A stretch of DNA of 31,217 bases from a virus. The translations under genes were made by a program, and so were the position numbers. This document shows, one piece after another, positions 12,076 through 29,225 of the stretch. Under the pieces are notes generated by a model that did no database searches, was not told where the DNA came from, and saw only the letters and a program-made list of their open reading frames with translations. The stretch lies in IMG/VR virus record IMGVR_UViG_3300018418_000073, positions 1 through 31,217 of that record. One strand, 5' to 3'. Numbering within the stretch: the stretch's first letter is position 1; the number at the start of each line of letters is the position of its first letter.

Positions 12076-12106
12076 AATATCGTTGGTTTTGTAATTACTA
12101 ATAGTT

Positions 12107-12126
12107 ACATATACAATATAAAAAAA
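12107..12126 (-). promoter_or_regulatory. Candidate phage late promoter, copy C
   Basis: The minus strand reads TTTTTTTATATTGTATATGT, about 32 bases before the scaffold ATG. It matches the motif before the 183-residue and 414-residue genes. The 149-base gap between portal and scaffold genes (12076-12224) is otherwise AT-rich without a clear hairpin. Confidence 0.55.
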
Positions 12127-12224
12127 TTTTTGCTATTAAACTTACAAAATGCAACTAATGTTTTTGATTTTGTGCAGTATATAGCTATCTATATTTTTTC
12201 TTTATGTAAATATATTTAGAAGGT

Positions 12225-21832: not shown

Positions 21833-22169
21833 ATGGCAGCATTTTGTGGATCACTGCGCATTTCTCATACTCCTCCTTTTCCTGAAAGTAAAGAATAATA
21901 TTTTGTAATTCATTTAGACTAGGACCGTTTTCAACGTCATGTACAATTGTAGTGTAACCACCTGCGTCTGGTCCGAAATGGTTTTTTGCTAGCAACCCCT
22001 CAAAAGTTACACGCTTAGTAATAATATCATAAGAGTTATTAAATGCACTCTCTAGGATCTCATCCTCTCTTTCCATCCTCTCAATTTCACTGAGGCCGTC
22101 AAAGAGTGCACCATCCATATCATCAAATGCATCAAAGTCTTCGTTATCATCTGAGTTATCCCAATCCAT
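21822..22169 (-). CDS. Acidic small protein, unknown (115 aa)
   Basis: The N-terminal 40 residues are strongly acidic (MDWDNSDDNEDFDAFDDMDG). The rest looks folded, with TKRVTFEGLLAKNHFGPDAG and a C-terminal helix pair (LNELQNIILYFQEKEEYEKC, then AVIHKMLPYVE). The final part resembles a UVR/helix-hairpin-like segment that pairs with another protein, but I do not assign it. It is the first gene of the leftward block, beside the divergent control region. Confidence 0.6.
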   Translation of the reverse strand: MDWDNSDDNEDFDAFDDMDGALFDGLSEIERMEREDEILESAFNNSYDIITKRVTFEGLLAKNHFGPDAGGYTTIVHDVENGPSLNELQNIILYFQEKEEYEKCAVIHKMLPYVE

Positions 22170-25150: not shown

Positions 25151-25726
25151 ATGCGTAGTTTGATAGATCAAATAAGAAATGTAGAGAAAAGTAATGATAG
25201 ATTTCATACTAATGTCTCTAAGATCCTACACTTTGATAGAGGAACCTTGTTTAAAGGTCACTCTGGCAGCGTGTATCACGGTACTTTAAACAACAAAGAT
25301 CAATACTTGAATATATTCAACAAGTATTTTGATGTTTCTATAAGTACTGAATATAATTTTGAATCTGGTAAGAGTATAATAAGCCTGTTTATTGACTCAC
25401 CAACACCTAAATACTTGAAGAATTTTATTGATACCATATCAAATAATGGTACAATGGATGTCAGAGCTAAAGAAGGCAGTGAACTTAACTATGCTTTTTC
25501 TGATCACATGACCACAATACACTACAGCCTCAGTTATGATGGCTTTGTTGTGTTTGGTCACTATGATAACTTACGTCTCGCAAAGAAACTAAGAACTAGC
25601 TTGAAGGTATTTAAGAGTATTATCAGAGAGAATGGAGAAGATCCGGAGTTCTGCAAAGCAGTTGTGTTGCCTTATAAGGACAAAAAACGTGACTGTATTG
25701 CATTATCTGATGGGTTGTTTAAATAA
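25151..25726 (+). CDS. Unknown protein (191 aa)
   Basis: The sequence begins MRSLIDQIRNVEKSNDRFHT and includes HFDRGTLFKGHSGSVYHGTL and LNYAFSDHMTTIHYSLSYDG. It looks like a soluble mixed alpha/beta protein. I recognise no catalytic motif. The stop lies at the start of a repeat and hairpin cluster. It ends the run of small genes that starts at 23891. Confidence 0.55.
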   Translation: MRSLIDQIRNVEKSNDRFHTNVSKILHFDRGTLFKGHSGSVYHGTLNNKDQYLNIFNKYFDVSISTEYNFESGKSIISLFIDSPTPKYLKNFIDTISNNGTMDVRAKEGSELNYAFSDHMTTIHYSLSYDGFVVFGHYDNLRLAKKLRTSLKVFKSIIRENGEDPEFCKAVVLPYKDKKRDCIALSDGLFK

Positions 25727-25919
25727 AAAGTGCAATATACTGCACACTAACAGTACCAGTATACTAAGAGAGAGTATATAGTATAAGAAAAGTGCAATAT
25801 ATTGCCTATTTAGGTGATGAATTATAGTTTGTTCCACTGTTGTTAACGGTTTCAGATCTCATAATCAGGACGCAAGCTAGACGCATCTAGGCAAACTATA
25901 ATTTTTTAATTAGAATCTT
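25727..25919 (+). other. Repeat and hairpin cluster with a 12-bp closed RNA-like structure
   Basis: Two 18-base direct repeats, 17 of 18 identical (AAAAGTGCAATATACTGC at 25726-25743 and 25788-25805), each contain a short inverted repeat. Between them TATACT/AGTATA forms a hairpin with a 7-base loop (25760-25778). Then AATTATAGTTTG (25820-25831) pairs perfectly with CAAACTATAATT (25892-25903), enclosing 60 bases with an inner stem CTAGA-CGCA-TCTAG (25877-25890) and followed by a T-rich end. The reverse of the CACCTAAATA motif lies at 25807-25816. This could be a structured regulatory RNA, a riboswitch-like leader of the next gene, or an origin/operator region. Confidence 0.6.
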
Positions 25920-26411
25920 ATGAAAGTATCTAAAAGAACAATTACAAACATGCTTGCAACAGCTCTTAGTAACAAGAGTGTAAATTATCACCTAGCAGTA
26001 GAGGCTATTGTGAACAATATGGCTGACAGTTCTTTAGAGTACATGCTGCACATGCTTACTTCTAAAGAACCAGAAACCCTTATTTACCCTGGTAGTTATG
26101 TGAAAATTCCTATGGATAAGTATCATTCAAGTAAATACTTTGATTATGGTACTTTAAAAGACATGGGTTTGGTTACAGAAGACGGTATGGTATACGCAGA
26201 AGTCATTGGTGATTCATCATGGAGTACTGAGTACAATCCCTTTTATGGCTCAATGAAAGTAAAGTACTTGTACCATGATGATGATAAACAATTAAAGTTT
26301 CATGAAGACAGTATAAACACATCAGATTTAACTTTGATTGATAAACTTGATATAGAATATTTTAAAAGTTTAAACCATGGCAAAAATATCACACCAGCTC
26401 TTGAGATCTGA
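25920..26411 (+). CDS. Unknown protein (163 aa)
   Basis: The protein begins MKVSKRTITNMLATALSNKS with a helical 50-residue segment. A beta-type domain follows (IYPGSYVKIPMDKYHSSKYF; YAEVIGDSSWSTEYNPFYG). No family is recognised. The start lies just after the closed hairpin at 25820-25903, so RNA folding may affect its translation. Its end overlaps the next gene by 35 bases. Confidence 0.55.
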   Translation: MKVSKRTITNMLATALSNKSVNYHLAVEAIVNNMADSSLEYMLHMLTSKEPETLIYPGSYVKIPMDKYHSSKYFDYGTLKDMGLVTEDGMVYAEVIGDSSWSTEYNPFYGSMKVKYLYHDDDKQLKFHEDSINTSDLTLIDKLDIEYFKSLNHGKNITPALEI

Positions 26412-26577
26412 GGTAAAAAATTGGGGAACAATTAAAAGAATGTTCTCTAGACAAACACATAGCTTTGGAAGCTATATGAACAAGAAGTATCATATGACTG
26501 ATACTAACTTAGCAGAGGCTGAAACAAGCTTTGCTGCTATTAGAATACTACTTGATAGACATGTCATATTCCAATAA
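26377..26577 (+). CDS. Small basic helical protein (66 aa)
   Basis: The sequence starts MAKISHQLLRSEVKNWGTIK and contains a basic patch (KRMFSRQTHSFGSYMNKKYH), then a helix (TNLAEAETSFAAIRILLDRH). It overlaps both neighbours, by 35 bases upstream and 17 downstream, in different frames. Basic charge hints at nucleic-acid binding, but no motif is seen. Confidence 0.5.
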   Translation: MAKISHQLLRSEVKNWGTIKRMFSRQTHSFGSYMNKKYHMTDTNLAEAETSFAAIRILLDRHVIFQ

Positions 26578-26809
26578 ATTTGGTATTGTCAATCAAGATG
26601 TTTTACAAGACCCTGAATTGAGTATCCAGGCTAAAGGACTTTACAGTTTGTTATGTACATACGCTGATAAAAATAGACAGTGCTTTCCATCTATAAGCAC
26701 CCTTGCAGATCACTGCAATAAATCAGTAAGAACCGTATCATACTTAATAGAAGAACTAAAAGCAAAAGGATATGTAAAAAGAAGAGGTCGTGTATTAATT
26801 TTAAGATAA
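26561..26809 (+). CDS. Helix-turn-helix protein, HTH_36-like (82 aa)
   Basis: From the ATG at 26561 the protein reads MSYSNKFGIVNQDVLQDPEL, then SIQAKGLYSLLCTYADKNRQ, CFPSISTLADHCNKSVRTVS and YLIEELKAKGYVKRRGR. This is the classic pattern of the HTH_36 family, found at the start of plasmid and phage replication initiators and in phage regulators. An upstream start at 26531 would add ten residues outside the family pattern, so I reject it. With only 82 residues it is the DNA-binding domain alone: a regulator, or a reduced initiator. Confidence 0.75.
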   Translation: MSYSNKFGIVNQDVLQDPELSIQAKGLYSLLCTYADKNRQCFPSISTLADHCNKSVRTVSYLIEELKAKGYVKRRGRVLILR

Positions 26810-28953: not shown

Positions 28954-29027
28954 GGCCTCATAGCTCAATTGGATAGAGCAACAGCCTTCTAAGCTGTAGG
29001 TTCAAGGTTCGAGTCCTTGTGGGGTCA
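28954..29027 (+). tRNA. tRNA-Arg (anticodon TCT)
   Basis: All four arms are visible: acceptor GGCCTCA/TGGGGTC (one G-U at position 2), D-arm GCTC/GAGC, anticodon arm ACAGC-CTTCTAA-GCTGT, and T-arm CAAGG-TTCGAGT-CCTTG. The loop CTTCTAA gives anticodon TCT, reading AGA, a codon common in this AT-rich phage. The CCA end is not encoded. Confidence 0.95.
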
Positions 29028-29034
29028 CTAGATG

Positions 29035-29118
29035 GCCGGATGATGGAAGTGGTAGACATGACAGACTTAAAATCTGTTGGGTAGTAATACCCGTGTGGGT
29101 TCAAGTCCCACTCCGGCT
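29035..29118 (+). tRNA. tRNA-Leu (anticodon TAA)
   Basis: Acceptor GCCGGAT/CTCCGGC with one mismatch at the last pair, anticodon arm ACAGA-CTTAAAA-TCTGT (anticodon TAA), a long variable arm (TGGGTAGTAATACCC) as in leucine tRNAs, and T-arm GTGGG-TTCAAGT-CCCAC. It reads TTA, the dominant leucine codon here. Confidence 0.95.
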
Positions 29119-29123
29119 ACTTA

Positions 29124-29197
29124 GCTCTCTTAGCTCAGTTGGTCAGAGCACTCCGCTCATAACGGATAGGTCACAGGTTCAAGCCCTGTAGGGAGCA
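29124..29197 (+). tRNA. tRNA with CAT anticodon (Met, or Ile2)
   Basis: Acceptor GCTCTCT/AGGGAGC, D-arm GCTC/GAGC, anticodon arm CTCCG-CTCATAA-CGGAT with a C-T mismatch at the outer pair, and T-arm ACAGG-TTCAAGC-CCTGT. Anticodon CAT means elongator Met, or isoleucine tRNA for ATA if the C is changed to lysidine. In a genome with many ATA codons the second is plausible. Confidence 0.9.
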
Positions 29198-29225
29198 CCT
29201 ATGTTTCACATAAAAAAAAAAGAAA

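Follow-up and report, generated by a model that had tools for sequence, protein, structure and literature searches.

A conserved intergenic element that may combine a DNA operator and a structured leader at the head of a phage operon

The intergenic element in front of an operon of an uncultured phage belongs, judged by comparison with related sequences, to a family of conserved elements, of which it is a divergent representative. We propose that the element is the head of an autoregulated operon, consisting of a DNA operator followed by a structured 5' leader, and we hold this reading at close to even odds (a probability of about 0.48). The element is conserved among relatives, its palindrome P1 coevolves with the winged-helix (HTH) protein encoded by the operon, its 3' domain carries compensatory changes together with a coding-strand bias, and one relative has lost the element and the HTH gene together. 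In our proposal, the HTH protein from the third gene would bind P1 (in the window, P1 and its second copy P1') as a dimer, and this binding would control transcription of the protein's own operon. The transcript would start with a structured leader, with the hairpin P2 on the CTAACARYACCAGTA core and then a 3' domain whose stem P4 ends about 16 nt before the start codon of gene A, and this leader may tune translation or processing of this first gene. That binding is by a dimer and that a promoter is present at or close to P1 is inferred, and so are the sign of the regulation and the manner in which the leader acts.

RESULTS

Genome and gene order of the phage

The window, the whole stretch of DNA that was analyzed, is a 31,217-base IMG/VR virus record. 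Its main genes up to position 22169 are on the minus strand and include those for the terminase, the portal protein and the major head protein, and its main genes from 22393 on are on the plus strand. The terminase was less than 60% identical to all of the 138 named records that it matched; among the matches listed, which included Flavobacterium phages and the crAss-like phage cr50_1, identity was 26 to 27%. With respect to TerL, the portal protein and the major head protein, the PHROG matches were phrog_6681, phrog_6547 and phrog_11589. With respect to the large RNA polymerase that is a hallmark of Crassvirales, three long proteins of a related record (G001) had no PHROG match. By the terminase comparison, the carriers of the element are uncultured phages that we tentatively place as distant relatives of the crAss-like phages. 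One further record, IMGVR_UViG_3300017951_000039 (L001), is 99.9% identical to the window across the 10.2 kb compared.

The features of the element and its surroundings are listed in Table 1. In relatives, other genes are found upstream of the element, such as a DUF4846 gene in G001. The HTH gene is the third of the operon, with genes A and B situated between P1 and the HTH gene, and an alternative in-frame TTG start at 26531 is possible. The HTH protein matches Pfam PF13730 (E = 6.1e-17) and phrog_270 (E = 7.3e-17), and its HTH domain is 30 to 48% identical to DnaD-like or replication-initiator proteins of Firmicutes phages (15 listed of 24 records). A PDB sequence search with the protein gave nothing useful. 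The protein encoded by gene A is predicted to have a helical N terminus and an SH3-like barrel (mean pLDDT, 86); fold comparison pointed weakly to Tudor/KOW/L21e-like folds (Z up to 6.1), and comparison of the predicted structure with BFVD gave no match with an E value of 0.001 or below. Relatives of gene A were not found in named phages (two query sequences), nor in GTDB genomes (one query sequence), so that no clue to the host was obtained. A tRNA cluster for Arg(TCT), Leu(TAA) and Met(CAT) is present at 28954-29199 of the window, and tRNAs were found approximately 2.5 to 3 kb past gene A in 13 of the 20 loci scanned.

Table 1. Positions of the element and the neighboring genes in the window
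Feature	Positions	Strand	Remarks
Upstream gene, 191 aa	25151-25726	+	No family above threshold; stop codon directly 5' of the element
P1, palindrome GTGCAATATACTGCAC	25730-25745		A-tract on its 5' side; tracks the HTH protein; candidate DNA-binding site
Conserved core CTAACAGTACCAGTA	25747-25761	+	5' arm of hairpin P2; single copy in 22 of 25 records
P2, hairpin	25753-25784	+	GUAC 25753-25756 with GUAU 25781-25784; GUAUACU 25759-25765 with AGUAUAU 25773-25779
P1', second palindrome copy GTGCAATATATTGCCT	25792-25807		
P4, 5' arm of the 12-bp stem	25820-25831	+	
Junction helix, UCC 25833-25835 with GGA 25868-25870	25833-25870	+	Common with L006
Inner hairpin CTAGA-CGCA-TCTAG	25877-25890	+	One pair changed on both sides relative to L006
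P4, 3' arm of the 12-bp stem	25892-25903	+	
Gene A, 163 aa	25920-26411	+	Usual partner of the element; predicted SH3-like barrel core, weak match
Gene B, 66 aa	26377-26577	+	
HTH_36 winged-helix protein, 82 aa from ATG 26561	26561-26809	+	Proposed P1 binder

Structure of the element in the window

A first-pass annotation had described a 12-bp stem enclosing an inner hairpin, preceded by paired direct repeats with another hairpin between them, and all of these are present as described. The stem is perfect, with 60 nt between its arms and 16 nt between it and the gene A ATG at 25920. The two direct repeats of 18 nt (25726-25743 and 25788-25805) are 94% identical, and each contains an inverted repeat.

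Taken alone, the perfect 12-bp stem is weak evidence. When the whole window was block-shuffled, 57 of 200 copies contained at least one such stem; for the local 400 nt, the count was 10 of 2000 shuffles. Because a 12-bp stem is not rare in shuffled windows, the case rests on the relatives. The frequency of stems in shuffled windows would favor a chance structure in AT-rich intergenic DNA, but the conservation and the compensatory changes in relatives speak strongly against this, and we regard it as hardly credible. The predicted fold of 25727-25919 had a z score of -3.16, and that of 25815-25910 had a z score of -2.25. The energy fold also allows P1 to pair with P1'. Its inner hairpin at 25836-25850 is missing from the structure common to the window and a relative, L006, in which the UCC/GGA helix is present.

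A terminator-like arrangement is seen on the minus strand, where a T-run follows the P1 hairpin owing to the A-tract that precedes P1; this A-tract is common to most of the clusters listed. A P1-like sequence with 2 mismatches in 14 positions is present at 12172-12185, within the interval 12076-12224 between two genes, and with up to 3 mismatches allowed, P1-like matches in the window are no more frequent than expected by chance.

The element is conserved in relatives

The layout common to the family consists of a 16-nt palindrome (P1) and the CTAACARYACCAGTA core or a variant of it, followed by P2, a hairpin rich in AT, and by a 3' domain in which P4 forms a long stem. Among the loci found through the gene A protein, the core motif was upstream of gene A in 78 of 79, and the one without it, L279, begins inside gene A. 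These loci (80 fetched, 79 counted) were obtained with alignment A2, made from eight proteins of motif-bearing loci, and they belong to the same clade and include many near copies. A search with the terminase provided the best 80 of at least 597 related loci. Gene A was within the fetched stretch of 12 of the 80, and a covariance model of the 5' domain matched 11 of these 12 at an E value of 0.1 or below, including L044, which is in the model by construction, and L005, which is a near copy of the window. The element of the remaining locus, L026, was recognized by eye. Terminase-found loci without gene A gave no match to the model. In the window, the model matched at 25727-25769 (25.9 bits, E = 0.0079).

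Copy number and placement of the element were also compared. In 25 longer records, which were mostly picked for holding the element, the motif was present once in 22, twice in 1 and not at all in 2. Small open reading frames separate the element from gene A in L160 and L163, and the element is one gene further upstream in L019 and L023 (by the model) and in L026 (by eye). The palindrome is present in two copies in the window and in L006, each with its own sequence, and mostly in one copy in relatives, as judged by eye.

The first-pass annotation had held that relatives keeping the flanking genes and lacking the stem would count against a functional structure. One relative is of this kind: the L011 record (L287), whose terminase is 85% identical to that of the window, keeps the neighboring genes, with the element and the HTH gene both absent. 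This joint loss is one event, against 78 of 79 loci that keep the core motif, and the record shows that the module is dispensable. In this AT-rich close relative, 10 nt are left between the genes.

Rfam 15 at the gathering threshold identified only tRNAs in the window and 20 loci, and the best hit in a lax scan of 25600-26000 had an E value of 1.8, which agrees with the earlier statement that no known RNA family could be recognized. The DNA of the element matched named phages at chance level only. An inner motif, TTTGTTCC..GGACGCAAGC, was considered as the mark of a wider family and rejected; of its 36 matches, only L324 (the L006 record) and L325 (a near copy of the window) looked real by context. 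In the subfamily of L036, L227, L231, L233, L241, L258, L260, L277 and L282, there is an extra long-range pair, AGTGGT/ACTGCT, and sequence resembling CTGCTCCCTTCCT is conserved ahead of the gene.

For the comparisons below, 131 rows were grouped into 49 clusters via shared 8-mers. Those lacking a P1 of 16 nt, a match to the HTH protein or a 3' domain of sufficient length were excluded, which leaves 46, 45, 44, 42 or 41 clusters. Loci L084 to L203 were picked by the motif; they are included in the 49 clusters and the correlations and are outside the presence count.

Evidence for RNA structure in the 3' domain

All 12 pairs of P4 are kept in L006, and 5 of them are changed on both sides. The structure common to the window and L006 comprises 21 pairs, 6 with changes on both sides, and is in part common by construction, as only the 12-bp stem had been named beforehand and the interior was taken from these two sequences. 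The UCC/GGA helix followed by CGCAAGC is common to the two, and no other true relative was found. In subfamily A4, with nine members, 6 P4 pairs had changes on both sides. Across 28 clusters, the P4 arms contained 640 Watson-Crick, 59 GU, 35 AC and 51 other combinations.

The energy of the 3' domain was lower as coding-strand RNA in 43 of 45 clusters, and its z score was lower on the plus strand in 39 of 45 (mean, -3.53 on the plus strand and -2.29 on the minus strand). The 3' domain of the window itself gave modest values (z = -1.34 on the plus strand and -0.09 on the minus strand). The view that a structured RNA precedes the gene is thus upheld by the compensatory changes in the stem and by the coding-strand bias, which are what is generally expected of structured cis-acting RNAs. 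A function of the 3' domain as RNA is likely.

A riboswitch, which had also been suggested, found no positive support, as family-wide conservation is confined to the CTAACARYACCAGTA core and the 3' domain is, by eye, unlike between subfamilies. More generally, a metabolite riboswitch, a self-cleaving ribozyme or an intrinsic terminator/attenuator would be in keeping with the conserved nucleotides in the junction of the window and L006 and with the T run that follows the window stem. Against this group stand the lack of an Rfam match, the variation of the 3' domain between subfamilies and the presence of a run of at least five T residues before the gene in just 7 of 49 clusters. The terminator scan allows only loops of 3 to 8 nt and is blind to P4. 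Functions of this group are very improbable.

The evidence for P2 was examined together with that for P1 in ten members, in which 94.4% of the cells pair. Changes on both sides were found in 19 cells, compared to 6.2 in shuffled alignments (0 of 500) and 0 to 1 in slid controls. Two of the five measures were weak; pairs with changes on both sides numbered 7, compared to 4.3 (5 of 500), and pair types were at the shuffle level (268 of 500). As 13 of the 19 cells are in P1, which we interpret as a DNA site, and the other 6 are in 2 of the 12 P2 pairs, the result tells more of P1 than of P2. P2 had 41 GU and 8 AC combinations, with 30 of the 41 GU in two pairs. The strand of P2 is uncertain because a conserved C.A mismatch corresponds to G.U on the opposite strand; the covariance model scores antisense sequences too. 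RNAalifold predicted no pairs on MAFFT alignments of the mixed family (A3 and A7), which we attribute to stems of different lengths, and gave pairs on the close subfamily A4 and on the window and L006. Alignment A6, with 51 sense rows and 17 others that were mostly antisense, was not used as main evidence. A kissing pair between the loops of P3 and P4 was considered by eye and dropped.

P1 varies together with the HTH protein

Although the sequence of P1 varies widely, P1 is palindromic in one fixed frame, with 230 of 294 cells Watson-Crick. Its mismatches showed no strand bias (25 GU and 23 AC). The HTH gene was found in all 77 loci with enough DNA, 76 of which carry the motif. Over 46 clusters, similarity in P1 correlated with similarity in the HTH protein (r = 0.64). 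This correlation stayed at 0.57 to 0.62 when gene A, B, D, E or F was partialled out (permutation test for gene A, 0 of 2000). Conversely, with the HTH protein partialled out, the correlations of P1 with these five genes were -0.16 to 0.09, with -0.11 for gene A. The 3' domain tracks the HTH protein as P1 does (0.67 and 0.66, respectively), and each keeps approximately 0.5 given the other (0.52 for the 3' domain given P1), so shared descent of the module contributes.

These correlations bear on whether the element could be a protein-binding RNA leader only, recognized by the SH3-like barrel of gene A or by a host factor, with P1 as its first hairpin. Gene A is the usual partner of the element, its weak SH3/KOW/Tudor-like fold (Z up to 6.1) would be suitable, and the compensatory changes extend to P1. 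Nevertheless, P1 follows the HTH protein and not gene A, its mismatches lack an excess of GU over AC, and in L019, L023 and L026 the element is away from gene A, one gene further up. An RNA leader of this sort without an operator is distinctly improbable.

Within the HTH protein, both the 18 residues before the helix pair (r = 0.69) and the recognition-helix segment (r = 0.65) track P1. Single columns were also scored, with the contributions of the 3' domain and of all other HTH positions removed. In 42 clusters, the top 3 of 64 variable columns were residues 60, 61 and 57 (0.50, 0.43 and 0.36, respectively), with a permuted maximum of 0.22 (0 of 300). The next columns were 67, 41 and 31, with 0.35 each. 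The ties of residues 60, 61 and 57 to the 3' domain were 0.06, -0.02 and 0.03, respectively. These three residues are in the presumed recognition helix. Sorting by these residues divides the palindromes into types. Palindromes of type S..DR have ACGTTAC/GTAACGT-like arms, those of type R..FK have (A/G)TGAAC/GTTCAT, and those of type D..SR have CTAT../TATAATAG; HTH proteins with S or T and with K at position 60 mostly accompany GGACC palindromes. Between the window and L006, residues 58 to 61 all differ, as do the palindromes, and differences were found at 4 of 5 positions in 57-61, compared to 16 of 77 elsewhere (Fisher P = 0.012, for a span chosen afterwards).

As expected of an operator, the palindrome follows the linked HTH protein, with the recognition helix foremost, and the segment before the helices tracks P1 equally. 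We regard the paired direct repeats as palindromes that most likely serve as binding sites for the HTH protein encoded by the phage itself, and P1 is probably the site of this protein. P1 as a genome-wide operator was rejected, as G001 and G005 contain no second copy at up to 3 mismatches in 16. The candidate P1 site lies upstream of the operon. Sigma-70-like promoter matches were at chance level, with 10 found and 9.9 expected; this consensus may not be the one used by these phages.

Evaluation of the element as a replication origin

A site bound by the HTH protein could also be part of a replication origin. A one-domain HTH initiator would bind P1 as an iteron, the AT-rich P2 would unwind, and the P2-P4 transcript would prime or control replication. 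The HTH protein does match replication-initiator and DnaD-like families, and in G001, genes for a DnaB-type helicase, a Toprim/DnaG-type protein and a Sak4-like protein are downstream. In the window, G001 and G005, cumulative GC skew has a local minimum 1 to 3 kb away from the element. The element is single copy in most records, and the iterons of RepA_N proteins are described much like the repeats of the window (PMC7145576). On the other hand, most relatives seem to have a single palindrome and no array (by eye), and the HTH protein leaves no space for a C-terminal domain, with 82 aa in the window and open frames of 83 to 86 aa in the relatives inspected. The skew minimum is toward the divergent gene region, away from the element, the L011 record does without the element, and an origin does not require coding-strand RNA structure before a start codon. 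We regard an origin as the main rival of the operon-head reading, though an unlikely one. The specific form in which a one-domain winged-helix initiator acts on a fast-changing palindrome, with initiation coupled to the structured plus-strand P2-P4 transcript, is rather doubtful; if it were true, initiator, origin and leader RNA would evolve as one module.

DISCUSSION

In phage and bacterial operons, structured 5' leaders feature compensated stems just before a start codon. The leader of the window resembles such leaders in general, yet has no Rfam family match. For the autoregulated operon head that we favor, each half is of a known kind, the kinds being winged-helix autoregulators such as Stf76, iteron-binding initiators and structured leaders. 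Stf76 of the Sulfolobus plasmid-virus pSSVx is a 76-aa winged-helix protein with two binding sites in the promoter of its own gene, and this binding is taken as autoregulation (PMC4027180). Like the HTH protein of the window, it is a small winged-helix protein of a mobile element. Stf76 is from an archaeal element; the candidate sites in the window precede a structured leader, and the evidence in the window is comparative only.

A second likeness is to the RepA protein of PLE, a RepA_N protein with a DnaD-like winged-helix DNA-binding domain, whose iterons are described as direct repeats that contain inverted repeats and are adjacent to an A-tract (PMC7145576). The window likewise combines a DnaD-like winged helix, direct repeats with inverted repeats, and an A-tract. 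In contrast to RepA_N proteins, the window protein of 82 aa has no room for a C-terminal domain, and relatives mostly seem to have a single palindrome. DnaD-like helicase loaders and initiators of Firmicutes phages share the HTH domain, but the matching PHROG profiles are far longer (e.g., 308 to 455 positions). Literature searches covering open-licence PMC papers turned up no description of the element, and the words "promoter" and "non-coding" were absent in a word search of one Crassvirales review.

The element would add a cis element that is new and unmatched in Rfam, together with a likely trans partner, to a phage clade in which we found no named member. The palindrome/HTH pairs in 46 clusters constitute a natural record of specificity change in a small DNA-reading domain, and this pairing predicts which helix binds which palindrome. 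The element also marks the likely control point, or the origin, of these genomes.
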